Positions 72-51,113 of a DNA stretch of 64,000 bases are shown piece by piece. A program made the translations under genes and the position numbers. The DNA is from Thelephora terrestris (lineage: Eukaryota > Basidiomycota > Agaricomycetes > Thelephorales > Thelephoraceae), in assembly GCA_015956445.1 (NCBI GenBank), contig WIUZ02000015.1:894001-958000 (forward strand). The letters are read 5' to 3'. A model generated the notes under the pieces. The model was not told where the DNA came from, did no database searches, and worked only from the letters and a program-made list of their open reading frames with translations. Every line of letters begins with the position of its first letter. Positions within the stretch are counted from its first letter, which is position 1.

Positions 72-1526
72 CCAATCTGGTTCCGAAGTACGCCCATCTC
101 GTGATTAGTCTGTGATATTGAATGTTAGAATATTTTTCAAGTCCGTGGCATAAATACTTGCCGAGAGGATAACTGCATCATCCCTGTGCAGGCAGTATGG
201 GAGGTTAGGGTAGACGGCATTGAACTCCTGCTGGTAGACAGGGACAGTAGGATTGGACCATGGCAACATGCCAGAGAAAGTGATCTTCATCATGTGTCGA
301 ATGAATGTGTTTTGGAAGTTGGGATGTATGTTCAGCGGCAGATCCTTTAGTCCTGGGACCTGAGTTTTTCCGGCCTCATCCTTGCATCTCCTTGGGAACG
401 AATAGACTACTGGATGTACCGGTGTCGTGCTTGTGGGTGGTGTAGTGTTATGTTCTATACAGAAGATAACTAGACCCAGTTGGTTTGCTTAGAGACTAAG
501 TGTATAGAAGCTAAGCAGGCTGGTTGAGTAGTCTATGAATGCAACTAACAACTCCACAGGGTGAGCGGGGTTCCTCTTTCCGGCTCTTGGACCTGATGAG
601 TTCGCTGAGGGATCTACTCTGTGAGTGTGTCCTTCAGTATTATTCCAAGGGAATCAGACGTACTATATCACTCAGTTGTTCCTGTTCCTTGATTAGACGC
701 TTATCTGGTGTGTGGGGGGTTTGGTGGTGATTTGATGGGAATGGAGTTCCTGATCTAAGGGGAGATCAAGAGTGGAGGGGATGATCTACTGGGGTAGACC
801 AAAGGGGGGGGGGAAAGAGGGGGATGCTCAAAGGGTGTGTTTGAGGCTGAATTCCTAAGGTTGTGCTTTGATGCTGTGCTTTGATGCTGTGCTTAGGGCT
901 GTGCTTAGGGCTATGCCTAAGGCTGTGTTGAGGCTGTGTCGTGTGACTAGACCTAAAAGGGAATGTGTACACTTACACCTGGGGCTGTGCTAAATATGTT
1001 GTAAAGGTGACAAGATATGTCGTAAAACTGGGAGGGTATAACTGATACCCTAAACCTTGCTGCAGATGACGTTTAGTACATCTAACTGATATGTCTTCAA
1101 TAATCTTCAGATAATAAACCTATGTCATAAAATATGTCGTAAGACCTTGTGGTACTGCTAAATCTGTCACTCAGTCAGTCACTTCTCTGAGGTGGAGGGT
1201 TATCTGCCTGAAGTTTCAGACTTCAGTACTAACAGATACCAAATACTCCCAACGTCTCAAGTGTACTAAGTGTCAGGCCGACGCGACCTCTACAGTTCGA
1301 TAGCACTCTTGCTATCCAAACCTATCACACACAGGGGTCAAACACACAGTTATAACCCTGTTGCAAACCCAGGGATATCGGAAGTCTCTTCACAGACTAG
1401 ATTGGAGAAGAGGAGAAAGAAGGAGACAAGGGTCTTCAGGTACTCTTGCTCTAAGCACACAGCAATAGAGGTCACGGAGAGTCTGATGATAACAAATCTA
1501 AGGAGTACAGGCTAAACTACTCTGAG

Positions 1527-1905
1527 TATATATACTACTTAGATTTGTGACGTGACAGTGACATGTAACTACCCTAAAGATACAAACACAGACAAACATG
1601 GTCCGTGCGCAGCACTGCATGGTCTGTGCGTTACGTAGTGACTAATGCTACAAATTATCAGCTGATAAACGAAAGTGTGGCGGCCAATAGCAATTTGAGA
1701 GCATTACAAAGCAGTTACAAAGCATGACGTAGCCTGGGAATGTTCGGAAGGAATGTGGGTATGACTGACTAACAGCCAATGGCAAAAGGGGAGCATATGA
1801 CTAAGAAATAGGGGCATATGATGTCATGTGGGTCATGTGCAGTAAACAATAGAAATGATGACTCAACTCCTGAGTCGTGGAAGGGGTGTGGCATTTGGTA
1901 TATAA
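1527..1905. promoter_or_regulatory. Divergent promoter region of family-1 copy A
   Basis: A leftward TATATATA box (1527-1534) for the LTR and a rightward TATATAA box (1899-1905, 60 bp before the gene's ATG) face away from each other. Two copies of the motif CATGGTCYGTGCG lie at 1597-1609 and 1618-1630, upstream of the LTR TATA in its reading direction. The same motif occurs at 6056-6068, 17798-17810, 24915-24927, 35037-35049, 39062-39074, 42019-42031 and 46634-46646, in families 1, 2 and 5. Confidence 0.6.
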
Positions 1906-1964
1906 CCAAAGGGGGTTGGATGACTGGGTCTCTCAACAAACCCACCTTTGTTACACACACCAAC

Positions 1965-3228
1965 ATGCCTCGTGCTTCTACTCGCAATCCCACTCGTCGT
2001 TCTTCCTCTTACTCTCCCGTTCAGGAGAACAACTTCAACATCGACCGCTTCTCCCATGCCCGCCGTGATCCGTCTCGTCCTTATCCCACCTTGGGAGCCG
2101 TTATGGACCGGACTGCCACCGCCGACCCTAATGAGGGGTTCTCTGATTTAGGTGGGAGGTCTGGTTGCGCATTCCGATTTAGGAAAGCGAACTAACTCCT
2201 TTTAGGTTTCAGGGACTTTCTCCAAGCTGCTCGTAGGGTGTCTCGGCGCAAGTTGGCGCGTATCGAGACTAACCCGTATGCGAACGAACTCCTCAATAGG
2301 GGTGTTGAGTTCGTGACTGAGTCCAACGAGACCTTCAACTCCATGTTGGAGGCCAGCGTTCTCCATACGGGGAACGTTGGGTCCATGTTGATGGACGAAG
2401 TGGCTCATGTCAATGAGCGTATCGATGGACGTCGTGAGGAGATTGAAGCCTTGGAGAACTGGAAGGAAGATATGCAGGGAGTCATTCACGGGCAAGAGGA
2501 TAGCGTTGTTCGGCAGGGGGCCGACATTGATTTACTAAAGGTAAATGTGGGGTCGGGAGATATTTGACATCTCTAACCTAACATTTCCTTTTAGGGAGAG
2601 GTGTCTACCCTCAAGGACTTGGTCCGGGCTCTAGTTACCAAAACCGGAGAGTTGGAGGACGATAAGGTAAGGGGTAGGGGTTGAAGATAATTGATCTCTT
2701 CTAACCCTATTCCTTTAGGTTCGCCTTACTCGTCGTGTCTCTGAGTTGACCGGAGAAGTCCGGGATCTCCAGAGAAGGTGTAACGAGCCAGGGGTCCGAG
2801 TCGAAGAAGAGGAGGGAGAAGAAGTTCTGCATCGGGCCGGGTCGCCGATAATTCCCAATCGGGCTGAGTCGCCACCTGCTCGTTTGTTGGTTCGTCACGA
2901 GAACAGGTTGGTTCCCGTTGATGATGAGGTTATCGAGATCGGGAGCGACGAGTTCTATCAGAACTTGGGAGTTGTTCGTAGGGACACCCCTCGTCCTGGG
3001 TTCGTATCTACTCCTTGGGGTAGTCGCCGTCAATGGCCTGCTCTGGAGTACGATCCGTATGCCGAGTTCGTTCCTGATAGCGAACCGAACTCTGACACAG
3101 AGCTTCCAGATTACGACGACCTGTCGGACGTAGACCCGAACGAGATCTGGGAGCAGAACTGGCTGAATGAGGAGTTGGTGAGATCGGCATTGGAAGTAGT
3201 ACAAAGGATCCGAAGAGATATTGATTAA
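1965..3228 (+). CDS. Antisense coiled-coil protein gene of family-1 LTR, copy A
   Basis: The ATG at 1965 begins MPRASTRNPTRR, a basic serine-rich N-terminus. Three short introns are predicted: 2152-2205, 2541-2594 and 2667-2718 (52-54 bp, GT...TTTTAG or TTTAG). They leave four exons and a product of roughly 365 residues ending at the TAA at 3226. The middle (exons 2-3 and the start of exon 4) has long heptad-like stretches rich in E, L, R and D, consistent with a coiled coil. The tail is acidic and proline-rich. A TATATAA box lies at 1899. There is no similarity I recognise to gag, pol, env or a known enzyme. The gene is antisense to the LTR's own promoter. Function is unknown; a DNA- or RNA-binding or regulatory role is only a guess. 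Confidence 0.65.
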
Positions 3229-5300
3229 ATAACTCTTTTGTACTGTCGGCTTCCAATGAATCTTCTTTCTATTTTGTCTATTGTGCGTGATCCATGAGTC
3301 GTAAAGCATAATGGTTTTCATAAATCCAATCCAAGGGTCAGATTAATAAGCCGGTTGACTTCTGCGAGAGGTCAGCGCGCGACACTTATTAATACATCCC
3401 TTGTTGTCGGTAGCCTGAATATCTACTAGTCGTCCAGGGGCAACGGAGGGCCAGGTAGGGGGGATCTTCGTATGAAGGTCCGCCGGTACATGTTCACGTA
3501 TTATACCTCGGGTCTTCTGGGGTATCTTAACTAGTAGCACGTTCCACGTATTGGACTTTGAGTCGTTAAGCATAGGGCATATTGCATAATAAACAGTTTT
3601 CCGCCGTGTTTAGGGCAGGGCACCAACTGACTTAGTGGTGATGAGGCGTTAAATAAAGGGAATAAAAGGGGGTAAAACGGCGAAATCATCACACTAAGCT
3701 TATTCAGTTCTTCTGACTTAGAACTTCTTCTCACAGAGGGTAGGGCTAAACATGGTATATGATTGCTCAAAATCACTCAACCACACAGTCCTAAGGGAAT
3801 TGAGGTAGATACTTTAGAGGGTAGATGTAGAGAGAGAGGGGGTAGATGTAAAGTGGGGGGGGGGGGGGGGGGGGGGGAAAGAGACACTGAGCAAAAGGAT
3901 GCTCAGCTGATGTGAGGATAGAGCAAACTGTGCTTTTCTCCTGAGCAGTAGGTACCTGTTTTTCTCTTAGAAGTGGGGTTGAGGTCTATATATACTATTT
4001 TACACAAGAATGTTCCAGAACATTCCAGCACTTTCCAGCATGTTCCAGGAAGTTCCATGATGTTCTAGGGCTTTCCATGGCTATCTGATCTCTTGATCTA
4101 ATCTCTAGGATTCTTATCTTGTCTTATCTAGAATGGATTATAATTAGACTTTCTGTTATCTAATCTTATCTGGCTTAAATACTTCTTTAATCATTTAAAT
4201 AATCCATTGTTCAACTTGTTGACTATAAATTGTGCATAAAATCGTAAATAAATAATGATAATCCTGGGGTCCGACACCGGAGTGGTGGCAGGGACTCCTT
4301 GAAAGAGGTGCGAAGCATTGTCAACAGCTGCATTGAACTGGAATGGGAAAGATTGTTGGTTGAGATAAGATGCGAGAGAATCTGGTGTGGGCGTCATAGG
4401 GCTGAACAGAGTTGTGTTCGACATAGCCGGGAACATTTCTTGTTGCCAAGAGGCTGACAGCAACGGACTGAGCACTTGAGACGAAGGTGACGGTGTGAGG
4501 ACCTGGGACGAAGGCAACAGCATAGAGACCTGGGGCGAAGGCGAAGGCATAAAGACCTGGGACAAAGGTGAAGGCGTAAGGACTTGCGATGAAAATGATG
4601 TCGAGAGCGTTGGGGTGGACGACCGAGACAAATTTGCCTTCGTGACAACCTGGTGCCAGTTGTTCACAAGGCCAGTGAACTGGGGCTATGTGGGCTAAGG
4701 TCCGATGGGGAGAAGATGGGGTGCCCTGTCAACATCGATGAAGGTGGTCCTTGGTTGTACGATGCCTCCTAGCTTCGTAGGGACACATAGGGAACTGTAG
4801 GGAAATGAAGGGAAACATTGGGAACGTCGGGGCGTGTAGGGAGATGTAGATAACAAGAGGGAACTAAAGATAATTTGGGAGGTCAGGATCTTTGGGATGA
4901 CAACGGGACGCTAGAGACGACGACGAGAACGCAGGGACGCAGGTATGATGATGAGAACGATAGGGAAGACGCAGGAGACTATAGGGAGACGACGACAACG
5001 AGTGGGGAACAATAGGGAGAGGAAAACATGGGAATCAGTCCCCTGGATTGGTCTCTGCTGAGTCTATCGAATACAGAGGCTTATATACTAATATAGGAGG
5101 CTCTGAGAACAAAGGAATCAAGAGGGAACAAACCAAATGATGTCAAATGAACCAAATGACGAGTTCATGACATAGGAAGGGCAAGGGATTGAAGGGAATG
5201 ACCAAGGAAAGAGATGTGGTTGAGAAATGAACCAAAAGGAAGTGATCGAGCATAGGGATCAAAGGATTGAGGGGGATGGTGTAGGGAGATGTCGCGAAGG

Positions 5301-5708: not shown

Positions 5709-8134
5709 TGTCAGGCCGACACGACCTCTACAGTTCAATAGCACTCTTGCTATCCAAACCTATCGCACTCAGGGATCAAACACACAGTTATAACCCTGTT
5801 GCAAACCCAGGGATATCGGAAGTCTCTTCACAGACTAGATTAGAGAGGGGGAGAAAGAAGGAGACAAGGGTCTTCAAACACTCTTGCTCTAAGCACACAG
5901 CAGTAGAGGTCACGGAGAGTCTGATGATAACAAATCTAAGGAGTACAGGCTAAACTACTCTGAGTATATATACTACTTAGATTTGTGACGTGACAGTGAC
6001 ATGTAACTACACTATGGATACAAACACAGACAAACATGGTCCGTGCACAGCACTGCATGGTCTGTGCGTTACGTGGTGACTAATGCTACAAATTATCAGC
6101 TGATAAACGAAAGTGTGGCGGCCAATAGCAATTTGAGAGCATTACAAAACAGTTACAAAGCATGACGTAGTCTGGGAATGTTCGGAAGGAATGTGGGTAT
6201 GACTGACTAACAGCCAATGGCAAAAGGGGAGCATATGACTAAGAAATAGGGGCATATGATGTCATGTGGGTCATGCGCAGTAAACAATAGAAATGATGAC
6301 TCAACTCCTGAGTCGTGGAAGGGGCGTGGTATTTGGTATATAACCAAAGGGGGTTGGATGACTGGTCTTCCAACAAACCCACCTTTGTTACACACCGCCA
6401 ACATGCCTCGTGCTTCTACTCGCAATCCTACCCGTCGCTCTTCCTCCTACTCTCCTGTTCAGGAGAATAACTACAACATCGACCGCTTCTCCCATGCCCG
6501 TCGTGATCCATCCCGCCCTTATCCTACTTTAGGAGCTGTTATGGACCGGTCCGCCACCGCCGACCCTAATGAGGGGTTCTCTGATTTAGGTGGGGGCCCT
6601 GCTTGCGTATTCCGGTTTTGGAAACCAAGCTAACTCCTTTTAGGTTTCAGGGACTTCCTCCAGGCCGCTCGAAGGGTGTCTCGGCGCAAGTTGGCGCGCA
6701 TTGAGACTAACCCATATGCGAACGAACTCCTCAATAGGGGTGTCGAGTTCGTGACTGAGGCTAACGAGACCTTCAACTCCGTGTTGGAGGCCAGCGTTCT
6801 CCACACGGGGAACGTTGGGTCCATGTTAATGGACGAAATTGCTCATGTCAACGAGCGCATTGATGGTCGTCGTGAGGAAATAGAGGCCTTGGAGAATTGG
6901 AAGGAGGATATGCAGGGAGTTGTTCATGGACAGGAAGATAGCGTTGTTCGACAGGGCGCCGACATCGATTTGTTGAAGGTAAGAAAGTTTGGATCCGGAG
7001 TAATTGACCTTTCTGATTCAAACTTTCTTCCTAGGGAGAGGTGACTACTCTCAAAGACTTGGTCCGGGTTCTGGTTACTAAAACCGGAGAATTGGAGGAC
7101 GATAAGGTAACGGGTAGGGGTTGAAGGTTTTTGATGTCTTCTAACCCTATTCGTTTTAGGTTCGCCTTACCCGTCGTGTCTCCGAGTTGACCGGAGAAGT
7201 TCGGGATCTCCAGAGGAGGTGCAATGATCCGGAGGTCCGAGTTGAGGAGGAAGAAGGGGAAGAGGTTCTGCATCGGGCCGGGTCGCCAATCATCCCTAAC
7301 CGGGCTGAGTCGCCGCCCGCTCGTTTGTTGGTTCGTCACGAGAACAGGTTGGTTCCGATCGACGATGAGGTCATTGAGATTGGGAGCAACGAATTCTACC
7401 AGAACGTAGGAGTTGTCCGTAGGGACACTCCTCGTCCTGAGTTCGTTTCTACTCCTTGGGGTAGTCGCCGTCAACGGCCTGCTCTGGAGTATGATCCGTA
7501 CGCTGAGTTTGTTCCCAATAGTGAACCAAACTCTGATACGGAGCTTCCAGATTACAATGACTTGTCGGACGTGGACCCGAACGAGATCCGGGAGCAGAAC
7601 TGGTTGAATGAGGAGTTGGTGAGATCGGCCTTGGAAGTGGTACAGAGGATTCGCAGAGATATTGATTAAATAACTCTTTTGTACTATTTGGCTTCCAAGG
7701 AATTTATCTTCTATCTTGTCTATTGCGCGTGATCCATGAGTCGTAAAGCATAATGATTTTCATAAGTCCAATCCAAGGGTCAGATTAATAAGCCGGTTGA
7801 CTTCTGCGAGAGGTCAGCGCGCGACACTTATTAATACATCCCTTGTTGTCGGTAGCCTGAATATCTACTAGTCGTCCAGGGGCAACGGAGGGCCAGGTAG
7901 GGGGGATCTTCATATGAAGGTCCGCCGGTACATGTTCACGTATTATACCTCGGGTCTTCTGGGGTATCTTGACTAGTAGCACGTTCCACGTATTGGACTT
8001 TGAGTCGTTAAGCATAGGGCATACTGCATAATAAACAGTTTACCGCCGTGTTTAGGGCAGGGCACCAACTGACTTAGTGGTGATGAGGCGTTAAATAAAA
8101 GAAATAAAAGGGGGTAAACGGCGAAATCATCACA
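5709..8134 (-). mobile_element. Family-1 gene-bearing solo LTR, copy B
   Basis: 2426 bp, TGTCAGGCC...ATCATCACA, flanked by the TSD GAGAA (5704-5708, 8135-8139). It has the same layout as copy A: leftward LTR promoter at the left, antisense spliced gene on + (6403-7669). It is the most diverged of the four copies. It sits in the family-4 LTR. Confidence 0.85.
6403..7669 (+). CDS. Antisense coiled-coil protein gene of family-1 LTR, copy B
   Basis: The same four-exon gene as in copy A, beginning MPRASTRNPTRR at 6403 and ending at 7669. Introns lie at matching places and differ in sequence and length more than the exons do. In the last exon (about 160 codons) a hand comparison with copy A gives about 50 silent and about 10 amino-acid-changing differences. 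Such a ratio is expected of a protein kept by selection and not of drifting junk. The coiled-coil region and acidic tail are conserved. Function is unknown. Confidence 0.65.
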
Positions 8135-10376: not shown

Positions 10377-12119
10377 ATGGCGACCAGCCAAATCGCTTTT
10401 TTTACTTGCAGCGAGTGTGGCAAGGTATGCAGGTCTGTCCGTGGGTTGACCCAACATCAATCTGTCCATCATTTGCTTCCTCGGCTTGGAAATCCCACCC
10501 AGATCTTTCATCACGAATATCACCCACTCCTCAATGGTAACCTTTGTTTTATCTACTTGTCCCTATGCTCACAGCATCCCAAAAGGATTGCCCTGTGACC
10601 GCCATGGCTGTTTTCTCCTGCCAGGCATGCCGCCATCACTACCACCATCAAACCCAAACGATGACTGGACGCCTTTCACCTCCTGAGCAGGATTCAAGCT
10701 CGCCGACATTTTGTACCTTAAGGCCCACCTCTCTCAAAGCATCATCAACAATCTTCTTGAGGTCTGGAGCGCTACCCTTGTCCCCCATGATGATCTTCCC
10801 CCCATCACCGACCATCAAGACCTCCATGCCCAAATCGACGCCATCAAATTAGGCAACATTCCATGGAGATCATACACTGCGCAGTGCCAGTGGCTCCGCC
10901 CGAGCAACAGCCCAGTACCAGAGTGGATGCAGACCAAGTACCAGCTCTGGTATTGCAATCCTTGGCAGGTCATCCATCAGATCCTCGCAAACCCCAAGTT
11001 CTCCTCGGGTATGGACTACACACCCCACAAGGACTTCCAAGATGGGGAACAACAATACTGAGACTTTATGAGTGGGAACTGGGCCTGGGAACAGTGTGTA
11101 AGTCAATGTGTGGGTGCCAAGTCAATGCTCGCTCACAGTTTCTCACAGGATCAGATTGCGACAGACGCCACGACCCATGGGTCGATGTTCATTCCAATCA
11201 TTCTTGGGTCTGACAAGACGACTGTCTCCGTCGCAACCGGTCAACACTCATATCATCCTGTTTACCTATCGGTTGGGAAAGTTCACAACCGCCTTCAACA
11301 GGCGCATAGGGCCGCCCTCGTTTTGATCAGCTTCCTTCCAATCCCTAAAGGTAATTGATGTATAACCTAATCATTGCATGCTCAAGCTAACACAAACAAC
11401 AGGTACATGTGATGATGCAAAGAGCAAAATCTTCCGCGACTTCTGTCATTGTCTCTTTCACGGGTGTCTCGCTGTGGTGAATGGCAGCACCAAACCTTAC
11501 ATGGCTACGTGGGACGTCGTTTGTTGTGCCGACTACCATTTCCGCCGTGCGATCTATGGCATTGGCCCACACATTGCAGATTATCCTGAACAATTACTTG
11601 CTGCAGGTGTCATGTATGGATGGTGCATAACGTCCATATTTCCTTACTGCTCATTACGCTTGAGTGAAACCATATTTCTTTAGGTGTGATGCTGACCACA
11701 CAGACCTCAATGGGTCACCTGCTGTGCTTTGTACCCTCAGGCAACTCCTAAGGCTCTCCAATTCTCAGAACGAAGATACTCTCTGGTACGGCTATGTGTC
11801 AGGAACATGGTATTTTTAAACTTTTTATAACACGCTCTTTCTTTGAACTCTTCTTACCTCTTCTTATGTTTGAATGCTTCACACTCCTTATCCTTCACAC
11901 CCATCATTCAAAATACACACAACACGCATACATTCACCGCAAATTGGAACAACATGGCTATACTAAGTGCTATCAATGTCCTGTCAAAAGTCGACTCTAT
12001 CTACGGCAGGCCTCAAGGTCATCAGCTGTCCATCCCGGAGATTGAAGAACTGGCCCCTCCTCGCAAGGATCTCTCCGAACATGGCGTCCCCATCCTCCGC
12101 ACTCAACTGAACGTCTAGT

Positions 12120-14017: not shown

Positions 14018-14984
14018 TGAACTAGCCACAAAGCCTTTGGAGTCCGAGGGGGCAGAGATGGCAGTTAGAAGGTCGGGTCCTCGGTTTAGAGGCGCGAGCC
14101 TCGAGGAAATCTGTGGGAAGCTAACGAAAGGTGAGAGAGAAAGTCGGGAAGAGAACGGGAGAACGAGGCAGAAGGCAACAGGAAAGCCAGGGCACGAAAC
14201 TACCAATAGTCAACTAAGGGAAACATCGGGAAACGTCAGGACAAGAGAGTCAGAAATTGGGACACCAGCGGGACACGGGAGACCAGAGGGACGACGAGAA
14301 CAAGGGTGAGAAGACAAGGGAGGACCGTAGCAACGCTGCTAGGCCTCAGAAGAGAGAGAGAGAGAGGAAGAGAGAGAGAGGGAACACTGCTGAGTGATTC
14401 TGTGGTTTATCGAATACAGGGGCCTTTATATACAATGCTAAGGGCTCTGAGAACGAAGGGAACCAAAGGGAACGAACCAAAATGATGTCAAGAGACCTTA
14501 TGACGATTCTATGACATAGGGAAGGCGGGGGATCGAAGGGAATGATGAAGGAAAGGAATGTGGTTGAAAAACGAACCAGAGGGAGGTCTGGAGTCGCAAG
14601 CAGGGCGATCGATCGAGACGTGATCGGGACGCAGGGAATGGAGATAGGGAGATGAAAACTAAAGATATAAAATGTACTGAAAAGTCGGGACACGATCGGG
14701 ACTGATCGGGACGTGATCGGGAGGGAATGTGAAGGAAACAAAGTCCTAGGGATACTAAATGCTAAGGAACGCAGGTCGCAGGTTGAAAGGGGAAAATGTC
14801 GGGACGTTGGGATGTTGCAAAGGGGGATAAGGAGAGAGGGAAGTGTAGCGAAGCAAAGGGACAGGCGAGTCCTTGTCGGGACAGTTGAGAATGCTGAGGG
14901 AAGTCATCTAGACCTCGCGCAGCGGTTGTTGATAGTCGAGAGAAGGTCGCGATTCCGGATAGTGTCCGAAATACGGTCACGACA
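14018..14984 (-). repeat. 3' LTR of the gypsy element
   Basis: 967 bp. A TATA-like GTATATAAAG lies on the minus strand near 14430. A purine tract (AAGGAGA, 14985-14991 read on -) abuts its inner edge and is a good polypurine-tract candidate. The other LTR lacks about 90 bp found here around 14640-14710. Confidence 0.85.
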
Positions 14985-38446: not shown

Positions 38447-38624
38447 AGAATTATCGGGAACAGCGGGATAAGGGGGAGAGAAACCTTCAACAAAAGGATC
38501 ACTAAAAGTGGGTGGGAAGGGTGGGACTGTTTCAGACAGATAATCCCGAAGGTCAGAGAGACGCTTCTCTGTGCGAGTAGAGGGAATGATGGAAGACTTA
38601 ATGAGTCAAAGGAACGGAAAAACC

Positions 38625-38643
38625 GGTCCCGGCGTGGGTTCCA
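38625..38643 (-). other. Candidate primer-binding site of the gypsy element
   Basis: Two bases inside the right (5') LTR, the minus strand reads TGGAACCCACGCCGGGACC. This begins with the TGG expected to pair with a tRNA 3' end. The tRNA was not identified. Confidence 0.55.
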
Positions 38644-38645
38644 GA

Positions 38646-39875
38646 TGAACTAGCCACAAAGCCTTCGGAGTCCGAGGGGGCAGAGATGGCAGTTAGAAGG
38701 TCGGGTCCTCGGTTTAGAGGCGCGAGCCTCGAGGAAATCTGCGGGAAGCTAACGAAAGGTGAGAGAGAAAGTCGGGAAGAGAACGGGAGAATGAGGCAGA
38801 AGGCAACAGGAAAGCCAGGGCATGAAACTACCAATAGTCAACTAAGGGAAACGTCGGGAAACGTCGGGACAAGAGAGTCAGAAATCGGGACACCAGCGGG
38901 ACACGGGATGTTGAACCGAAGGTCTGTGCCCGGCAACGGGTCAACCGGCTCCACCGCTTCATGCGAGAGCCGATGCCGGAGAGCGCTGAATAAGCGACCC
39001 GAAGGGACAGTGTCACATCAGTGACCCGATCGATCGGTATAACACGCGTGCCTTAAGCCGCCGCACGGACCATGCATCAGTCACGCTGTATAGATGTGAC
39101 GTTAATAGAGTAGATAGTATATATACCCCTCATGTGTCCATAGATCAATCAATCGCTTCTCTCTCTCTCTCCCCCACTTGCACTACTATATCTTCCCCTC
39201 TCAGGTAAGAACTAGAGTATGCCATGTAGTAGTATAGAATATACTCTACCTGCTCAACACGGGAGACCAGAGGGACGACAAGAACAAGGGCGAGAAGACA
39301 AGGGAGGACCGTAGCAACGCTGCTAGGCCTCAGAAGAGAGAGAGAGAGAGGAAGAGAGAGAGAGGGAACACTGCTGAGTGATTCTGTGGTTTATCGAATA
39401 CAGGGGCCTTTATATACAATGCTAAGGGCTCTGAGAACGAAGGGAACCAAAGGGAACGAACCAAAATGATGTCAAGAGACCTTATGACGATTCTATGACA
39501 TAGGGAAGGCGGGGGATCAAAGGGAATGATGAAGGAAAGGAATGTGGTTGAAAAACGAACCAGAGGGAGGTCTGGAGTCGCAAGCAGGGCGATCGATCGG
39601 GACGTGATCGGGAGGGAATGTGAAGGAAACAAAGTCCTAGGGATACTAAATGCTAAGGAACGCAGGTCGCAGGTCGAAAGGGGAAAACGTCGGGACGTCG
39701 GGATGTTGCAAAGGGGGATAAGGAGAGAGGGAAGTGTAGCGAAGCAAAGGGACAGGCGAGTCCTTGTCGGGACAGTCGAGAATGCTGAGGGAAGTCATCT
39801 AGACCTCGCGCAGCGGTTGTCGATAGTCAAGAGAAAGTCGCGATTCCGGATAGTGTCCGAAATACGGTCACGACA
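38646..39875 (-). repeat. 5' LTR of the gypsy element with a family-5 LTR inside
   Basis: It matches the left LTR (14018-14984) at about 98 percent by eye outside a missing stretch of about 90 bp and the nested family-5 LTR (38909-39259). The differences I could spot are transitions, largely of the CpG to TpG or CpA type. Confidence 0.85.
38909..39259 (+). mobile_element. Family-5 solo LTR
   Basis: 351 bp, TGTTGAACCG...CTGCTCAACA, TSD CGGGA (38904-38908, 39260-39264). A TATATATA box is at 39118-39125, with the CGCACGGACCATG motif 44 bp upstream (39062-39074). It is a conventional small LTR without a gene. Confidence 0.9.
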
Positions 39876-39961
39876 ACGGTCGATATGGGAGATGGTAGAG
39901 GTCCCTTGGGCGACCTTGTAGGTATAGTTGTTGGGGAAAGACATGTTGGTAAGATGATGGG

Positions 39962-42378
39962 TGTGATGATTTCACCGTTTACCCCCTTTCATTCCCTTTA
40001 TTTAACGCCTCATCACCACTAAGTCAGTTGGTGCCCTGCCCTAAACACGGCGGTAAACTGTTTATTATGCAGTATGCCCTATGCTTAACGACTCAAAGTC
40101 CAATACGTGGAACGTGCTACTAGTCAAGATACCCCAGAAGACCCGAGGTATAATACGTGAACATGTACCGGCGGACCTTCATACGAAGATCCCCCCTACC
40201 TGGCCCTCCGTTGCCCCTGGACGACTAGTATATATTCAGGCTACCGACAACAAGGGATGTATTAATAAGCGTCGCGTGCTGACCTCTCGCAGAAGTCAAC
40301 CGGCTTATTAATCTGACCCTTGGATTGGACTTATGAAAATCATTATGCTTTACGACTCATGGATCACGCGCAATAGACAATATAGAAAATTCATTGGAAG
40401 TCAACAGTACAAAAGAGTTATCTAATCAATATCTCTTCGGATCCTTTGTACTACTTCCAATGCCGATCTCACCAACTCCTCATTCAGCCAGTTCTGCTCC
40501 CGGATCTCGTTCGGATCTACGTCCGACAGGTCGTCGTAATCTGGAAGCTCTGTGTCAGAGTTCGGTTCGCTATCAGGAACGAACTCGGCATACGGATCGT
40601 ACTCCAGAGCAGGCCATTGACGGCGACTACCCCAAGGAGTAGATACGAATCCAGGACGAGGGGTGTCTCTACGAACGACTCCTACGTTCTGATAGAACTC
40701 GTCGCTCCCGATCTCGATAACCTCATCATCGGCGGGAACCAACCTGTTCTCGTGACGAACCAACAAACGAGCGGGTGGCGACTCAGCCCGGTTAGGGATG
40801 ATCGGCGACCCGGCCCGATGCAGAACTTCCTCTCCCTCCTCTTCTTCGACTCGGACCTCCGACCCGTTACACCTCCTCTGGAGATCCCGGACTTCTCCGG
40901 TCAACTCGGAGACACGACGAGTAAGGCGGACCTAAAGGAATAGGGTTAGAAGAGATCAATTATCTTCAACCCCTACCCCTTACCTTATCGTCCTCCAACT
41001 CTCCGGTTTTAGTAACAAGGGCCCGGACCAAGTCCTTCAAAGTAGTCACCTCTCCCTAAAGGAAATGTTGGGTTAGAGAAGTCAATTATCTCCCGACCCC
41101 ACATTTACCTTCAACAAATCGATATCGGCCCCCTGCCGAACAACGGTATCCTCCTGCCCATGAATGACCCCCTGCATATCCTCTTTCCAATTTTCCAAGG
41201 CTTCGATCTCCTCACGACGTCCATCAATACGCTCATTGACATGAGCCACTTCGTCCATCAACATGGACCCAACGTTCCCCGTATGGAGAACGCTGGCCTC
41301 CAACACGGAGTTGAAGGTCTCGTTGGACTCGGTAACGAACTCAACACCCCTATTGAGGAGTTCGTTCGCATACGGGTTAGTCTCGATACGCGCCAACTTG
41401 CGCCGAGACACCCTACGAGCAGCTTGGAGAAAATCCCTGAAACCTAAAAGGAGTTAGCTTGGTTTCCTAGATCGGAATGCGCAAGCAGGGCCCCCACCTA
41501 AATCAGAGAACCCCTCATTAGGGTCGGCGGTGGCGGTCCGGTCCATAACGGCTCCCAAGGTGGGATAAGGGCGGGACGGATCACGGCGGGCATGGGAGAA
41601 GCGGTCGATGTTGTAGTTGTTCTCCTGTACAGGAGAGTAGGAGGAAGAGCGACGGGTGGGATTGCGAGTAGAGGCACGAGGCATGTTGGCTGTGTGTAAC
41701 AAAGGGAGGTTTGTTGAGAGACCCAGTCATCCAACCCCCTTTGGTTATATACCAAATGCCACGCCCCTTCCACGACTCAGGAGTTGAGTCATCATTTCTA
41801 TTGTTTACTGCGCATGACCCACATGACATCATATGCCCCTATCTTTAGTCATATGCTCCCCTTTTGCTATTGGCTGTTAGTCAGCCATACCCACATTCCT
41901 TCCGAACATTCTCAGAATACGTCATGCTTTGTAACTGCTTTGTAATGCTCTCAAATTGCTATTGGCCGCCACACTTTCGTTTATCAGCTGATAATTTGTA
42001 GCATTAGTCACCACGTAACGCACAGACCATGCAGTGCTGTGCACGGACCATGTTTGTCTGTGTTTGTATCTTTAGGATAGTTACATGTCACTGTCACGTC
42101 ACAAATCTAAGTAGTATATATACTCAGAGTAGTTTAGCCTGTACTCCTTAGATTTGTTATCATCAGACTCTCCGTGACCTCTACTGCTGTGTGCTTAGAG
42201 CAAGAGTGCCTGAAGACCCTTGTCTCCTTCTTTCTCCTCTTCTCCTATCTAGTCTGTGAAGAGACTTCCGATATCCCTGGGTTTGCAACAGGGTTATAAC
42301 TGTGTGTTTAACCCCTGAGTATGATAGGTTTGGATAGCAAGAGTGCTATTGAACTGTAGAGGTCGCGTCGGCCTGACA
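39962..42378 (+). mobile_element. Family-1 gene-bearing solo LTR, copy D
   Basis: 2417 bp in the opposite orientation to copies A-C: TGTGATGATTT at the left, CGTCGGCCTGACA at the right, TSD ATGGG (39957-39961, 42379-42383). The empty site is visible in family-3 copy 2 near 49535. The LTR TATA (42116-42122) follows two motif copies (42019-42031 and 42041-42052) and leaves about 250 bp of R-U5. It is nearly identical to copy C over the gene. Confidence 0.9.
40422..41684 (-). CDS. Antisense coiled-coil protein gene of family-1 LTR, copy D
   Basis: Starts MPRASTRNPTRR at 41684 and ends at 40422, with four exons as in the other copies. The protein of the long exons is identical to copy C. It reads away from the LTR promoter. 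It looks whole. Function is unknown. Confidence 0.65.
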
Positions 42379-43185
42379 ATGGGGAAGTTGCTGGTGTTGC
42401 TGATCAAGGATGGCTCCAAGAAGATGTCCTTCTTATAGCCTAGATCAGTGATCCTTCACGTGACCTACCTCGACGAACATCATTGGTCCGGGTCACATCA
42501 ACTTCCGCCACTGTACCATCATCGTTGGCTTACTACATCAAGCTGACACCTCAGCCCGCGGGACGGCCTTGGAAGAACTTCGTTCCGGAACGCCTAGAAT
42601 ACGCGCGCACTAAAAATAGGTCTCATGACCTTGACGACCCCTTTTACGAACCCCTTTACAACCCTAATGACGCATTTATGACATCACGATAACGACCAAC
42701 CTTGGACCCTGATCACACATGGACAGTCACATCACAGTCTTCCTAATGAAAGGAAGGAATCGCCGCTATTAGGAAGGAGTGCCTTAGACTCCTTTTGGTT
42801 AGCTAAGCGAATGTGGAAGTAGCCGTTAGCGTGAAACACCGGCGAAGCATGTAATCCCTCATGTCCCATGAATCTAGGCCCGACCTCCTCATGTTCGGAC
42901 ATACGTTGAGGTTGCCACTAGTCCGTGATGCTGTTACCGCCTACAGACAACAAGGGATGATGTATGGTTTCCTATCTTTAGCCTCTCCAAAGGAGGCATT
43001 CAAGAAGGTCTCCACCTGACCCTTGGGTGTGATCCCCAGGTATGAACTTTCATGACCCCATGCCCCTATTTCTTTTAGGACTAGTGTTATCTTTACCCCT
43101 ATGTTCATGCGGACTATTGTTATCTTTTATGCATTCCTTCACATGCTAGTAAGGCCCTTTGTCCTTTATTCCCCCACGCGTCATA

Positions 43186-43812
43186 CAGTAGTTGACGGTT
43201 CCTATTAACACCGAAATTGATTTTTGAGCCCCCTCATTCGAAAATCCTTGCGTTCTTCTCAAAAGTTAGCGGGTTGTCTACCTATGTATCTAATCTATAT
43301 AGTGAGGGTGAATTCAAAGTAGAAATAGGCAAAGTGCCCATTCCACCGCGCTCAGACCATTCCCGCACTGAAACCGTGACAAATCAATCCTTTTAACAGT
43401 GTCACACATCACCCCATTTGATGCGTGACCATAACACAGTCACGCAGTCACACAAGTCTTGCCTCAGGTGATAAAATAGTGCTTCTGCTCGTTAAGTAGG
43501 CTAAATTGCCTCTGGAAGCCACCACGCATGAACGAAAATGACGGTAGGATAGTATAGACACCAAATATGACCATGTTTTGTTGTTGTGAGTAACCAATGG
43601 CTCATAACAGCTTTCATCAAATTTGCACTTTTGACGCGACTTCAAGATATCTCACTGCAACCTTCATAAAAAATTACAAAATACCTCAGGAACGTAGAAT
43701 GGTCCATAGGCTATATAATGGTACCAATTTTGCAGCTCTAACTTGGGTGTGGCGAGTGAAAACCCCATCTGTTAATAGGAATGATGGTGTTAATAGGAAC
43801 CATTAACTACTG
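43186..43812. mobile_element. TA-flanked inverted-repeat element (mariner-like MITE)
   Basis: 627 bp bounded by CAGTAGTTGACGGTTCC... and ...GGAACCATTAACTACTG, with TA on both sides (43184-43185, 43813-43814). It is absent at the matching site of family-3 copy 2 (about 50361). No coding region. It is inserted in the U3-like part of family-3 copy 1. Confidence 0.85.
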
Positions 43813-46016
43813 TACTTGTTCGCTTCCCTTACTTAGCATTCCCACACTCCTTATCTCCCTTTGTTCTGCCTTGATAAGGGTATATTAGGGTTACTGACGT
43901 CATGGCCACCCCTCTAGTATAAGTAGCAACTGTGGCTGTATCGTAGTACCTTAGTTTTGTTACCTCAGGAAATCCTCTGCCCTTCTCAGCCCAGTTGCAG
44001 TTAAGGACAAGTCAGAGTTTTCTGTTTGAACACAACACATCCCCCATCTGCTCTCCCTCCCGCTCTGCGCGTCAACTGCGCCTCATAACTATTGAACCCC
44101 AGCATTCACAACATAGAATACCTTGAGCGTCCAGTCGATCACCTGGTGGAGTCATCAATCCTGTTGTAGGGATAAACCCTTGCTTGTTAAACCGAATGAA
44201 GTACAGTTTAGGTTGGGTTTCTCTTTAGGATTTCGACCTGACTTGTAGTGACCATGGACAACCTACTGGAAGAATAGAGAAGTGATCTTTCTCTCACAGC
44301 TAGTTGGACTAGTGAGTACTCTGCGGAGTCAGCTCAGTGTACTGGTAGTTGTTGGGGTAGAGTGGCCCTGACACTATGGTATTGTGCCAGACTTCATGGT
44401 GAGTTCTGGTTTGCCACTGAACCTCCCTTATCTTGACCGTTGCTTCTAGCCATTCACCACTCAGTTCCCACGTGCAGATATATATGAACTGCTCACTCCA
44501 GACCTCCTCCACCAGGCCATCAAAGGGACATTCAAGGATCACCTCATCACATGGGTTGAAGAATACCTCAAGCTGGAGTACGGCCCGTCTCGGGGGTCAG
44601 AGATTCTCAATGAAGTCAATCAGAGGTTTGCTTTCACCCTGATCAATCCCTCACTTACCCTGACCTCCTCTCCAGAATTGCCCTTGTCCCTCTATTCCTT
44701 GGACTTCGCAGGTTCAAACAAGGGTGGAACTTCTAACAGTGGACTGGGAACAACTCTAAGGCATTCATGAAAGTTTTCGTCACCTCGCTGGAAGGCTTTG
44801 TTCCCATCGACATCATCAAGGCCCTCATGTCATTTTTGGATTTCTGTTATCTCACACGTCTGAACACTATCACTGAAAGTTCTCTCAACACTCTTGACAG
44901 CGCCCTCAATAAATTCCACCACCACCGCAAAATCTTTCAAGAGACAGGTGTGCACTCAACCGGTTTTTCCCTCCCCCACCAACATGCACTCACACACACT
45001 ACCACCATCACATCGAGAAGTTTGGGGCTCTGAACGGTTTATCTTCCTCAATCACCAAATCAAAGCATATCACCACCGTCAAGAAGCCATGGCGCCAATC
45101 AAGCCGCTACGAAGCCCTCGGCCAAATGCTCACCATCAATACCTGGAACGACAAACTTGCCGCTGCTCGTGTTGACTTTTCCACACGTGGCATGCTAAAT
45201 GGATCTTGTCTTAGCGAGGCTCTCCAGGAGCTTCATGACTCCCTCGAAGGTTCTACCAGTGGGAGTGATGATGCGGAGAGTGTTTTGGTCAGCAACAACC
45301 ACAGTGATGATGACTACAGCCAAGACCTCAATGCCGACGATGACAAGGAAGAAGCGGGCCCGATTGATGGCCCCTCCATGATGAGCGTCGTTTCTCTTGC
45401 CCATAAATGAGGTAAGTGGCTTTTCTTGTTCTATCAAGAAGGTCCTGCCTTTGCTGGAGTCCCTTCAATTTCTGCCTGTCCAACTTTCAACGCTGTCCAA
45501 GAAATCTCTGTCTTCCATTCCGCCAAGGCTACCTTCCACGCCCTGAGCAACAGTTCCGGCGTTGAGGGATATTACCGTGAGACTATCCGGTCCACCTCAA
45601 GGTGGCAAACGAGTGGTATCATCGTGCCCCGACAGGATCCTGTCCTCCTCGCTACTGGCTCAGACACTGCTGGAGTACGCGGCCTTGAAGTTGCAAGGGT
45701 CCAACTCCTCTTTTCATTCATGCTCGAAGAAGAACTTTTCGAATGTGCCCTTGTCCACGAATACTGCAAGAGCTTCACTGACCCCGACCCAGACAACAGC
45801 CTTTGGATCTTTGAACCAGATTACAGTGATGGCGGTTCCAGAATCACGTCTGTCATCCACCTCAATTCCATTGTCCGCGCTGCACATCTATCGCCTGTTT
45901 TCAAGGATAATACTCCAATGCCCAGGGAGATCAATTTTAGTCACACACTCGATGTATTCAGTGCCTTTTATCTAAACAATTACATCGATTATCACGCTTT
46001 TGAAACCCTGACCTAG

Positions 46017-46446: not shown

Positions 46447-47671
46447 TGTTGAGCAGGGAGTATATTCTATATACTACATGGGCGTACTCTATCTTACCTG
46501 AAGGGGAGGGGAGATTCTTAGTGTGTTTAGTAGATGGAAGAGAGAGAGAAGTAATTGATCAATTTACAGACACATGAGGGGTGTATATAGTTATTTACTC
46601 TATTGTCATCACATCGTTAACATGTGACTGGTGCATGGTCTGTGCGGTGGCATAAGGCACATGCATCCTACCAATCGCCCTGGGTTCCCATCAGAATGCC
46701 GGTCCTTCGGGTTACTTACTCATTGCCACCGGCATCAGCCCTTGCTATAAGTAGTGGGGCTGGTTGACCCGTTGACGTGCCTCCATTCTCTGGAGTACTT
46801 GTTGGCAACATTCCCTACGTACCTTTCCCTTGCGATGCCTTCACGATGTTTCGCAACATTTCTATACTCTCTACACCTCCCTACCCTTCCCTATACTTCC
46901 CTACATATCCGTATATCTCCCTTCACCTCACTACTCCCTTCCCTATACTAACCTACTCATCCCGATGCTTCGTGACTTTCCCGATGTTTTGGTATCCTCG
47001 CTATCTCTCGCTACCCCTCCCCCCCCCCCGACCTTCCTATATTCCTCCCAACACTATACCATTCGCAACCCCTCCCTATATCTTCTCCCGACTTCCCTAT
47101 ATCTTCTCCTGACTTCCTTATACCTTCGCGACATCTCCCTACACCATCCCCCTCAATCCTTTGATCCCTATGCTCGATCACTTCCTTTTGGTTCATTTCT
47201 CAACCACATCTCTTTCCTTGGTCATTCCCTTCAATCCCTTGCCCTTCCTATGTCATGAACTCGTCATTTGGTTCATTTGACATCATTTGGTTTGTTCCCT
47301 CTTGATTCCTTTGTTCTCAGAGCCTCCTAGATTAGTATATAAGCCTCTGTATTTGATAGACTCAGCAGAGACCAATCCAGGGGACTGATTCCCATGTTTT
47401 CCTCTCCCTATTGTTCCCCACTCGTTGTCGTTGTCTCCCTATAGTCTCCTGCATATTCCCTATTGTTCTCATCATCATACCTGCGTCCCTGCGTTCTCGT
47501 CGTCATCTCTAGCTTCCCGTTGTCATCCCAAAGATCCTGACCTCCCAAATTATCTTTAGTTCCCTCTTGTTATCTACATCTCCCTACACACCCCTGTCAG
47601 GAACATGGTATTTTTAAACTTTTTATAACACGCTCTTTCTTCGAACTCTTCTTACCAATTCTTATGTTTGA

Positions 47672-47914
47672 ATGCTTCACACTCCTTCTCCTTCACACCT
47701 ATCATTCAAAAACACACACACGCACGTACTATTCCCAGCGAATCCACAACCAGCTATACAAAGTGCTATCATCGTCCCATCAGAAATCGACTCTATCTAC
47801 AGCAGGCCTAAAGGTCATCAACTGTCCATCCCGGAGATCGTAGTGCTGGCCCCTCCTCGCAAGGACCTCCCCGAACATGGCGTCACCATCTTCGGCACTC
47901 AGCTGAACGACTAG
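47672..47914 (+). CDS. Small ORF convergent with the family-3 antisense gene
   Basis: 80 codons, ending GTQLND with TAG at 47912-47914, 1 bp from the stop codon of the antisense gene. The same arrangement is seen at 11843-12118 in copy 1. Differences between the copies are mostly amino-acid changing, so there is little sign of selection. It may be chance. Confidence 0.25.
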   Translation: MLHTPSPSHLSFKNTHTHVLFPANPQPAIQSAIIVPSEIDSIYSRPKGHQLSIPEIVVLAPPRKDLPEHGVTIFGTQLND

Positions 47915-47915
47915 T

Positions 47916-49518
47916 TCAAGCCGATAGGAAGAGATGCCTTCGAGCGGACCGATCAGCCTCCCAGATGTCACCGAACTGCTGAACACCTGGTCCCACATCT
48001 CCATTACCGGGTGACTGCTCGGTAGCACTATCGACGTAGTCGGCAAGCGACCCTCCGTCTCCCTCATCGGACCCCTGGGTGGGATCCTGTCTTGCGAGGC
48101 GAAGCTGGTGTCGGAGTTGGATCTCGGACTCGACCTGTCGGTAAGGACGGTGGACCCGATATCGGAATCCTCGCTCCTCACCTTGACCAGACTGGTCACC
48201 ATCCGACTCGACTGGTCGAGGGTAAGGATTAGCCGACGCGGTCATACGATGGGTGGGATGGCGTCGAGAGCATTTGCAACGTTGCCCCTTAGTCACCGGA
48301 CGTACCTCGGCGACCCTTGGAGCATCTTCAGCTCGGTCAACCTCCATGACCTCGTCCTCGATCTTCACCAACTGATGGATCGGCTGCAAGACACAGCGCC
48401 CACAGTTCTCTTTGTCGGAAGCGGCCAAGGTAGAAGCCGGAGCCGGAGTCGGGACGGGTACCGAGTTCTCGATCGGAGGCGTCGCATAGGACGACGGGTT
48501 AGGAGATGGGAGTACCACCTCATCGGCGTACTCCAACTCGAACGGAACATCGGCTGTCCCCTGACCGACCAATTTGGGACCCTCTTTGCAGTTGCAGGTC
48601 TTGTCCTGCAAGGACTCAACTTGCGCCGTCAGCACCGCCACCACGTTCTCGAGTTCTTCCGTCTAGAAGAAGTGTCAGCTTCCCTCATTTCGTCTTCGAG
48701 ATGAGGAAAGCTACCTTTTCATCCCTCCTGGCCAATGCCCCCTTGATGTTGTTGTCCCTAATCTTCAACCCGGCAATCAACTCCTGATGATTGGCGACCA
48801 TTGCCTCCAACGCCTCGTTTGTTCCCTGCTGGAAGGCGGCCAAGGTCTCCTTCATTTGAAGACCCTCCGCCGACAGACGAAGGACGTCCGCCTTTGCCTC
48901 TTTCACCTCCCGCTCTAAACATTCAACCTAGGCAGTTTGATTAGTCGAGAGTCATACTCGAATATTCAAACGGAAAACCTACTCGGCTTTCCCCTTCCCG
49001 AACGAGCGACCACAAGAGACTAGTGGAAGCAGTGGCGTGGCGGACGGCCCGAGGAACGGTTGCTCCATGCTCCAACAGGTCCTGATCGTAGATACCCCTC
49101 TGCAGGGTGTACCAGAGCTCCTTCTTGATCGGATGCTCCAGCTCCCCGAACCTACCCCTCATCTGGAAGGCCACCTTCTCCGCAATTATCGTACGGACCC
49201 AGAGTTTATCGTCCCAGATCAACCCCATCAAATGTGGGATCGTCTCCCTGAGACGTTCGGCATCCACTTCCGTGACGACCTCCAAGATCTAGAAGCCGTT
49301 AGTTTGTCATCAACGCCTAAAGAACGGACCTCTACCTAGAGGAAGGCGTTAGTGCAAACACACGAAGCTCTAGGTCTCCCCCATACCTGGTCATCTGTGG
49401 TGTAGGGAGTCCCCGCCGCACAGGCGTAGGTCTTGCGAGCAGCGGCACGACGGTCGATGCGGGAGATGGTGGAGATACCGTTAGCGACTTTGTAGGTATG
49501 GTTGTTGGGGAAGGACAT
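47916..49518 (-). CDS. Antisense spliced gene of family-3 LTR, copy 2
   Basis: The ATG at 49518 begins MSFPNNHTYKVANG. Exon 1 ends near 49387 (DDQ), and an intron region of about 95 bp follows. Exon 2 (to about 49000) contains IPHLMGLIWDD and RGIYDQDLLEHG. Exon 3 (about 48927-48718) is a Glu/Ala/Leu-rich helix likely to form a coiled coil. Exon 4 (about 48665-47916) continues the helix and then has a Cys-rich NCKEG, a proline-rich acidic part and an Arg-rich stretch. The introns end in CTAG and are near 50-60 bp. The plan of N-terminal basic part, helix and acidic tail is like family 1, but the sequences are unrelated. Function is unknown. Confidence 0.6.
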
Positions 49519-50440
49519 GTTTTGGTAAGATGATGGGAAAGTTGTTGGTGTTGCTGATCAAGGATGGCTCCAAGAAGACGTCCTTCTTATAGCCTAGATC
49601 GGTGATCCTTCACGTGACCTACCTCGACGAACCTCATTGGTCCGGGTCACATCAACTTCCGCCCCTGTACCATCATCGTTGGCTTACTACATCAAGCTGA
49701 CACCTCGGCCCGCGGGACGGCCTTGGAAGAACTTCGTTCTGGAACGCCTAGAACGCGCGCGCACTAAAAATAGGTCTCAAGACCCTGATGACCCTTTTAT
49801 GACATCACGAACCCCTTTACGACCCCTCATGACTTTACGATTACAATCAACCCTGGACCCTGGAACACACACGTGGGCACCGGGTATCAACATTTGGACA
49901 CTGTGCTTCTAATCGGATAGTAACCCTATCTGATCTAGTTGTGCTTTGGAAGCAGAGTAGGCCCGAGCCGAGAACGGCGGCCGAAGAATATAATCCCTGG
50001 TGCCACTTAGGAAGAACGATATTCCCAGGTGCTATGCCTAATCAAGACTGGGTCTGATCAAGCGATTACGGTTGCAACTCCCAGGTTACTGCCTGTCCGT
50101 TGGTATCATACCACCTACCGACAACAAGGGATGTGTAGAGTTCCTCGTTATCTCTGGCCAATCGCAGAAGCCACGAGACGGGCTCACCTGACCCTTGGGT
50201 GTGGTCTAGATTCAGGTACGAACTTTCATGACCCATGCCCCTTTTTCTTTTAGTACTAGTGTTATCTTTACCCCTATTTTTCATGCGGACACTCGTTATC
50301 TTTTATGCAAACCTTCACACGCTAGTAAGGCCCTTTGTCCCTTATTCTCCCACGCGTCACCATTGTTCGCTTCCCTTACTTAGCGTTCTCACACTCTTTA
50401 TCTCCCTTTGTTCTGGACTTGATAAGGGTATATTAGGTAT

Positions 50441-50469
50441 TGACGTCATGGCCACTCCTTTAGTATAAG
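50441..50469 (+). promoter_or_regulatory. LTR promoter of family-3 copy 2
   Basis: A perfect CRE-like TGACGTCA (50441-50448) lies 12 bp before TAGTATAAG (50461-50469). The same pair is conserved in copy 1 (43895 onward), despite divergence of the surroundings. Confidence 0.5.
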
Positions 50470-51113
50470 TAGCAACTGTGGCTGTATCGTAGTACCTTAG
50501 TTTTGTTACCTCAGGAAATCCTCTGCCCTTCTCAGCCCAGTTGCAGTTAAGGCCAAGTCAGAGTTTCTTGTTTGATCCAAGACACCCCCCCCATCTGCTC
50601 TCCCTCCCGCTCTGCGCGTCAACTGCGCCTCGTAACTATAGACTCCCAGCAGTCATATTAGAATACCTCGAGCGTCCAGTCAATCAACTGGTGGAGTCAT
50701 CAATCCTGTTGTAGAGATAAACCCTTGCGTGTTAAACCGAACGAAGTACGGTTTAGGTTGGGTTTCTCTTTAGGATTTCGACCTGACTTGCAGTGACCTC
50801 GGACAACCTACCGGAAGAATAGAGACGTGAATGTTCTCTCACAAGCTAGTTGGACTAGTGAGTACTCTGCGGAGTTGGCTCAGTGCACTGGTAGTTGTTG
50901 GGGTAGAGTGGCCCTGACAACCCCAACATTCCCAATGTTTCCCTTCATTTCCCTACAGTTCCCTACGTGTCCCTACGAAGCTAGGAGGCATCGTACGACC
51001 AGGACCACCTTCATCGACGTTAACAGGGCACCCCATCTTTTCCCCATCTGACCTTAGCCCACATAGCCCCTGTTCACCGTTGCCAGGCACAGACCTTCAG
51101 TTTGAACAGTTCC

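Follow-up and report, generated by a model that had tools for sequence, protein, structure and literature searches.

Giant long terminal repeats and LTR-like units that carry antisense genes in the genome of Thelephora terrestris

What are the nine large units, each with a protein gene of its own, that lie scattered over a 64,000-nucleotide stretch of contig C7 (hereafter the window) of the ectomycorrhizal mushroom Thelephora terrestris? An initial annotation had taken them for solo copies of long terminal repeats (LTRs), in three families, with the gene running antisense to the LTR. We followed these units through the whole genome (40.6 Mb in 60 contigs). Our reading, to which we assign a probability of about 80%, is that these are LTRs of Ty3/gypsy chromoviruses, present almost always as single copies, and that their giant U3 would hold a complete gene antisense to gag-pol.

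The nine pairs of coordinates given by the initial annotation are exact, and all nine units in the window have TG...CA ends and an exact 5-bp target-site duplication (TSD). Genome-wide, an exact TSD flanks 36 of 38 copies (9 in the window and 29 elsewhere; 9/9 in family 1, 9/9 in family 2, and 18/20 in family 3), against 1.0 match per 38 after random re-pairing of the flanks. The two copies without an exact TSD, L031 and L036, both belong to family 3. This count leaves out L001, L004, L006, L009, and L029, which are window copies, and 14 incompletely matched loci (L014, L017-L028, and L048). The joined flanks of units 3b, 1c, and 1d (Table 1) align across the junction with uninterrupted counterparts in the window, and these units were therefore inserted whole; identities are 96.7% for 3b (120 columns, no gaps), 87.4% for 1c (119 columns, no gaps), and 93.0% for 1d (114 columns, 1 gap). 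The great length of 3a (32.6 kb) and 2b (4.7 kb) is due to other elements nested inside them and to nothing else. As the initial annotation had it, the units lack pol: no reverse-transcriptase (RT) match falls within the units themselves, and the lone RVT_1 match of the window, a weak one below the cut-off (20153-20509), belongs to DNA nested between the ends of 3a.

Full-length elements of family 3

The genome search with family 3 returns two direct-oriented matches at C11:96422-109036 that bound a full-length element. Its LTRs, 3299 bp each with 0 mismatches between them, have TG...CA ends, flank an internal region, and are bordered by the TSD AGGAT on both sides. The interior contains a gag frame of 681 aa and a pol frame of 1322 aa. 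In pol, matches above the Pfam cut-offs include an aspartic protease, RVT_1, RNase H, H2C2 (the integrase zinc domain), rve, SH3_Tf2-1, and Chromo; in gag, zf-CCHC is above its cut-off and Retrotrans_gag below. A polypurine tract (PPT), AGGAAGAGGATAA, precedes the 3' LTR, and the open pol frame comes to within 23 bp of that LTR.

The primer-binding site (PBS) that follows the 5' LTR is complementary to the family-3 LTR's own predicted RNA start. Specifically, the 12-base complement lies 420 nt from the LTR 3' end, is preceded by a TATA-like box at a distance of 34 nt, and is present in 19/19 family-3 copies; among 2000 random internal 25-mers, 1 matches equally well. Self-priming is a trait of Tf1-type elements, and a complement so placed and so conserved is its predicted signature.

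The LTR/PBS junction pattern CCTGACA-N0-4-TAACAAA is present at 8 places genome-wide (control pattern, 0). These pair one to one, on the same strand, with 8 RVT_1 loci previously grouped as family 3 (E-values of 8.1e-31 for seven and 5.6e-30 for one), and the RT lies downstream by 2.2 kb at one place and by ~3.1 kb at the other seven (maximum 3.13 kb). Thus in 8/8 full-length candidates gag-pol points the same way with respect to the LTR end. The initial annotation had named the lack of any copy flanking an internal retroelement region as grounds for rejecting LTR status; for family 3 such copies exist, at the 8 junction loci and in the C11 element. As far as their sequence tells, family-3 units are real LTRs of a Ty3/gypsy chromovirus. 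Counting 442 family-3 ends (those with A, G, or T at position -13) against the 8 junctions gives ~53 other LTR ends per full-length element.

At C23:1032748-1045697, two family-3 LTR/PBS junctions, each with an RT domain, follow one another on one strand at a distance of 9,310 bp, and probably form a tandem with one LTR in common.

A second pol lineage, located outside the window (RT at C12:1331701), has a purine tract, then TGTCAG, then an antisense coiled-coil-like gene in its 3' LTR. The protein of this gene aligns with the family-3 protein (33% over 237 columns, E = 2.7e-20), and locus L053 carries a copy of a similar gene. The presence of a homologous gene in the LTR of the second lineage therefore points to a long-standing element gene.

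Standing of families 1 and 2

Families 1 and 2 have the same TG...CA ends and 5-bp TSDs (9/9 copies in each) and end in CCTGACA in common with family 3. The three families had been called unrelated, which stands for families 1 and 3, the pair covered by a protein profile comparison (no significant match). Family 1 also carries a start-site motif, CCTTAGATTTGTTATCATCAG, ~233 nt from its end and thus close to the RNA-start region of family 3, and the core of this motif, CTTAGATTTGTTA, is kept in 9/9 copies. In the reading we favor, families 1 and 2 would likewise be LTRs built on this plan, with full-length partners that are few or absent in this genome. Their LTR status rests on the ends, the TSDs, the common plan, and, for family 1, the start motif, because no shared internal junction was found. 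We call both families LTR-like, and do not file them as members of LTR elements.

Several points weigh against extending the LTR reading to all units. The initial annotation had proposed a search for full-length elements with two such LTRs around gag-pol; these were found for family 3 but not for families 1 and 2. For family 1, the genome contains 163 exact copies of the 15-base end, whose 13-base flanks comprise 159 distinct sequences, four of which occur in pairs, and no junction shared between copies was seen among these 163 ends. For family 2, at least 170 places have A or T at -13, and the 100 flanks inspected are all different. None of the 8 LTR/PBS junctions belongs to either family. 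This junction test, which covered the CCTGACA side of the units, could overlook a full-length element that occurs once and has a different PBS. At the proportion seen in family 3, ~3 full-length family-1 elements would be expected, and the estimated probability of finding none is ~0.05, so their absence is mild evidence against LTR status. The family-1 start-site motif is weak when taken alone (1-4 of 200 shuffles score equally), and family 2 has nothing similar. Lastly, of the 8 full-length family-3 candidates the detailed reading concerns C11 alone, and for the second pol lineage it covers 3 kb at the 3' LTR.

Candidate family-1 elements were considered and rejected. Direct-oriented pairs of ends in L052 and L053, recognized by eye, have no intact gag-pol frames between them; the L053 stretch holds a pol-like fragment of ~300 aa (by eye). 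Tandem family-1 pairs ~100-400 bp apart (C21, C59, and C45) have unrelated flanks. At two family-1 ends the flank resembles the family-1 LTR, over 12 and 13 bases, and could be read as a PBS; both are best explained as nested insertions, and one of them, on C16, adjoins another family-1 copy. A by-eye comparison of family-1 and family-2 places with RT loci, among the matches listed, gave no consistent element.

In the 5 bases beside the 163 family-1 ends (the four duplicated flanks counted), G or C is favored at both outer positions, and A or T at the second and fourth.

Could families 1 and 2 instead be single-unit DNA transposons with one or two genes, which merely resemble the family-3 LTRs? 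Ginger-type elements, for example, have TGT...ACA ends and an integrase-like transposase. Such an origin would agree with the lack of a shared internal junction among the 163 and 100 flanks, with copies that look young yet stand singly, with the strong constraint on private changes in the family-1 gene and the family-2 sense open reading frame (ORF) described below, and with the two divergent genes of family 2. However, a Pfam scan that covered the family-1 protein and, for family 2, the sense ORF and the first antisense frame gave no transposase, no search for autonomous relatives having been made. The TG...CA ends, the 5-bp TSDs, and the CCTGACA end are those of family 3, the antisense-gene plan is common to proven LTRs, and the RNA-start motif of family 1 resembles that of family 3. 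A scarcity of full-length partners is also a feature of family 3 itself, with its ~53 other LTR ends per full-length element. On balance we regard the transposon explanation as unlikely.

A somewhat less probable alternative, and a doubtful one, is that in families 1 and 2 the single LTR-like unit is itself what multiplies, and never goes through a genomic stage with two LTRs. In that case, one-LTR cDNAs made by the family-3 machinery would integrate directly, and each unit would be selected for its own genes. This would explain the many young, coding-intact single copies for which no full-length parent was found.

Antisense genes and their conservation

In family 3, the antisense gene is located inside U3, on the strand opposite to gag-pol, and each LTR of the C11 element has it: P0092, an annotated protein of 481 aa, matches five pieces in either LTR, and also in 3b. 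The annotated family-3 models are 480-486 aa long and form clusters of up to 40 members. For family 1, the annotated protein P0005 (367 aa) spans the predicted protein end to end. In family 2, the conserved antisense frame shifts once near its end, through either a small intron or a frameshift.

The short introns that had been described for families 1 and 3 are confirmed. Family 1 has four exons and three introns of 52-54 bp, all bounded by GT-AG in 9/9 copies; in family 3, the three checked introns (52-98 bp) have GT-AG in 19/19 copies. One further intron near the C-terminus is used by the large family-3 model clusters P0090, P0092, P0094, and P0096, and not by P0081 (8 members), and the constraint pattern favors the frame that is reached through this last intron. 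TATA-like boxes are found ~67-70 bp ahead of the antisense start codon in families 1 and 3. The claim that the gene points away from an LTR TATA box is borne out for the gene; a strict LTR-strand TATA box is found in family 2 only, with relaxed versions in families 1 and 3 that are kept in all copies looked at.

Another annotated T. terrestris protein, P0001 (612 aa), joins the family-1 antisense gene to the family-2 sense ORF, and is probably a gene model drawn across neighboring insertions.

In addition to its antisense gene, family 2 has within its last 650 bp a strongly conserved 207-aa ORF in LTR sense, which the initial annotation had not noted. As a result, the short R-U5 ending in CCTGACA that had been attributed to all units is not short in family 2, and the CCTGACA end itself stands. 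For the sense protein, Pfam gave nothing up to E 1, and a search of solved structures in the PDB gave no credible relative. Four homologues of Joint Genome Institute (JGI) source, probably from metagenomes, are exactly 207 aa long and 71-88% identical.

The pattern of change among copies is that of coding sequence. Over the family-1 exons, the windowed ratio of nonsynonymous to synonymous polymorphism (pN/pS) is ~0.03-0.17 in the gene frame, and the low frame switches at the introns; sliding windows reveal a likewise frame-specific constraint in the family-3 gene. Private changes in family 1 amount to 91 synonymous and 24 nonsynonymous, with neither a stop nor a frame-breaking gap in 9 copies (5 of which were picked as best matches to 1a). 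The corresponding figures are 64 synonymous, 9 nonsynonymous, and 0 stops for the family-2 sense ORF (7 copies), and 106, 94, and 1 for family 3 (338 codons, 19 copies). Private synonymous change reaches 3.9% in family 1 (9 copies) and 6.2% in the family-2 sense ORF (7 copies), and private nonsynonymous change is at most ~0.3% per copy in both. If all private nonsynonymous change were decay after insertion, the family-1 copies would be on average ~0.3% old. From this comparative evidence, we take the antisense genes to be real.

Some observations on the genes pull the other way. In the antisense gene of family 2, the first frame is relaxed in its private changes (34 synonymous and 46 nonsynonymous, 0 stops, 7 copies). 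Two splice sites disagree among the annotated family-3 models, which vary in where the first intron ends and in whether the last one is used. With regard to function, a Pfam search with the antisense proteins gave sub-threshold, coiled-coil-like matches only.

Intact copies are numerous: 142 of 150 family-1 exon-4 copies and 140 of 150 family-2 sense ORFs are free of stops, in samples biased toward intact copies (the best 150 of 258 and of 413 candidates, respectively). These numbers would also be expected if the gene were host cargo, or a domesticated host gene, spread by the LTRs and selected for the benefit of the fungus. Against this stand the homologous gene in the LTR of the second pol lineage and the lack of a named relative from another organism, in a search that required shared 5-residue words and counted models regardless of whether they lie inside or outside LTRs; T. 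terrestris accounts for 71/71 family-1 and 71/72 family-3 matches. We consider a host origin of this kind very improbable. Finally, the ORFs might be frames that happen to be open opposite other conserved sequence, or relics of genes under no selection. This would fit the long overlapping frames on both strands, but is refuted as a general account by the pN/pS minimum that follows the gene frame across introns, by the intact frames and the private changes of family 1 and the family-2 sense ORF, and by the 207-aa length kept in the JGI-source homologues.

Table 1. Units of the three families in the window, with their genes and predicted signals (window positions unless a contig is named; strand of a unit is that of LTR sense)
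Feature	Position	Strand	Details
Family-1 unit 1a	1271..3693	-	TSD CTAAG; gene matches 1965-3225 (+)
Family-1 unit 1b	5709..8134	-	TSD GAGAA; gene matches 6403-7666 (+)
Family-1 unit 1c	25320..27736	-	Sits in sense ORF of 2b; TSD ATCAT
Family-1 unit 1d	39962..42378	+	Sits in 3a; TSD ATGGG; gene matches 41684-40425 (-)
Family-2 unit 2a	16953..19329	-	TSD AATGC; apparently within gypsy remnant (weak RVT_1 match 20153-20509)
Family-2 unit 2b, broken by 1c	23444..28172	+	TSD GGAGA; first antisense frame 24452-23712 (-); 1c divides sense ORF
Family-2 unit 2c, broken by foldback element ~32990-33945	32633..35895	+	TSD GTCGG; sense ORF 35252-35875 (+)
Final 71 bp of further family-2 unit starting left of window	1..71	+	C7:892898-894071
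Family-3 LTR 3a, of diverged subfamily, interrupted by nested insertions	11797..44373	+	TSD CTATG; gene pieces 39944-39876, 13535-11987
Family-3 solo LTR 3b, 3,325 bp	47595..50919	+	TSD ACCCC; paralogous empty site ~4769-4888; LTR type flanks gag-pol at C11:96422-109036
Antisense gene of 3b	47783..49518	-	Pieces 49518-49384, 49288-48980, 48927-48712, 48662-48291, 48208-47783; tblastn of P0092, 88-98% per piece
Predicted promoter and RNA start of 3b	50464..50509	+	TATAAG at 50464; PBS-complementary 12-mer 50498-50509
Antisense gene of 1c, 367 aa	26014..27276	+	Exons 26014-26200, 26255-26589, 26643-26714, 26767-27276
Antisense gene of 2a	18252..19221	+	Begins in first frame at Met 18252; Cys/His-rich end in second conserved frame, up to 19221
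Sense ORF of 2a, 207 aa	16973..17596	-	Stops 20 bp before LTR 3' end
LTR-strand TATA box upstream of 2a sense ORF	17740..17746	-	TATAWAR in 7/7 copies

Other repeats are found among these units. A foldback element of ~950 bp, whose halves are inverted copies of each other, has two window copies (20524-21478 and 32991-33946, 96% identical), one of which interrupts 2c. A self-complementary region of 2.2 kb (29518-31736, arms ~80% identical) contains diverged repeats. The LTR-like direct repeats at 14018-14984 and 38646-39875 look like those of another gypsy element that splits 3a, and no ATG frame of at least 150 aa starts within them; the gag and integrase regions of this gypsy-like element were named by eye, and a Pfam scan of two of its frames gave no match. 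To the right of 3b, at 51798-55216 (-), two adjoining frames, a nucleoside triphosphatase-like region followed by WD-like repeats, resemble a fungal gene of the NOD-like receptor (NLR) type, also named by eye.

A gene carried in U3, and its known relatives

By its sequence, a family-3 element has the layout LTR(U3 2.9 kb - R-U5 0.42 kb)-PBS-gag-pol-PPT-LTR, and its self-priming signal is like that of Tf1. Its genomic RNA would contain the complement of the gene once, in U3 at the 3' end, and reverse transcription would copy U3 into both LTRs, so that each new insertion would receive two genes and each solo LTR would keep one. The introns would survive because the genomic RNA is the opposite strand, on which the splice sites of the gene go unrecognized; the initial annotation had proposed the same, and all 28 copies examined are consistent with it. 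Solo LTRs would arise through recombination between the giant LTRs. The copying of U3 into both LTRs, the persistence of unspliced antisense introns, and the recombination of long LTRs to solos all belong to the established knowledge of LTR retrotransposition. The antisense gene may be driven by a promoter of its own, given the TATA-like boxes ahead of its start codon.

Several known systems share parts of this plan. We liken family 3 to chromoviruses of the Tf1/sushi type (SH3_Tf2-1 and Chromo being assigned by Pfam), with which it has in common the order of pol, the chromodomain, a PBS complementary to the predicted RNA 5' end, and the 5-bp TSD. The LTRs of Tf1/sushi-type elements measure a few hundred bp, whereas those of family 3 measure 3.3 kb and contain a spliced antisense gene in U3. 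In human T-cell leukemia virus type 1 (HTLV-1), HBZ is likewise a spliced antisense gene expressed from an LTR promoter, and encodes a nuclear regulator; it differs in that it lies mostly outside the LTR, belongs to the 3' LTR copy only, and is the gene of a retrovirus. The sag gene of mouse mammary tumor virus (MMTV) is a protein gene within U3, but it is in sense orientation and encodes a membrane superantigen.

An antisense accessory gene in a gypsy element is, as such, of a known kind. Antisense ORFs of the aORF-3R kind are described for the plant elements Grande (gene23), RIRE2, Retand, and PvRetro13 (PMC7264820, PMC11963269), and brtn of the fungal element Boty as an antisense additional ORF (PMC8365987). 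As there described, the aORF-3R elements resemble family 3 in having a conserved gene antisense to gag-pol; their gene, however, lies between pol and the 3' LTR, is present once per element, and is lost from solo LTRs. By contrast, the family-3 gene is wholly within U3, is present twice per element, is kept in solo LTRs, and has introns. Grande gene23 has its own promoter and encodes a nuclear protein, and several plant antisense ORFs have Smc or predicted DNA-binding domains (PMC7264820, PMC11963269). Because of this parallel, we infer that the coiled-coil-like product of the antisense gene may act in trans in the nucleus, in LTR transcription, anti-silencing, or integration, which would be why selection keeps it. 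Among fungal LTR elements, crapaud of Podospora is similar in its variable 5' LTR halves and its many solo or fragment copies; the ORFs described for it in the portion available are gag and pol only, without an LTR gene (PMC10787394). Within the literature covered, which excludes most subscription journals, we found no report of a whole spliced gene inside each LTR or kept in solo LTRs.

With the gene in U3, the loss of gag-pol through LTR recombination leaves the gene in place, and many of the single ends left behind, of which the genome has hundreds, retain a copy that appears intact. For gene counts this calls for caution, as clusters of up to 41 annotated "hypothetical proteins" of T. terrestris match LTR genes. 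If our reading is true, each solo LTR is a possible gene cassette, and hundreds of accessory-gene copies could outlast the enzymes of the element. The system would then offer a natural case for studying what antisense accessory genes do, why they are antisense (their introns survive), and whether solo LTRs function in a retroelement population.

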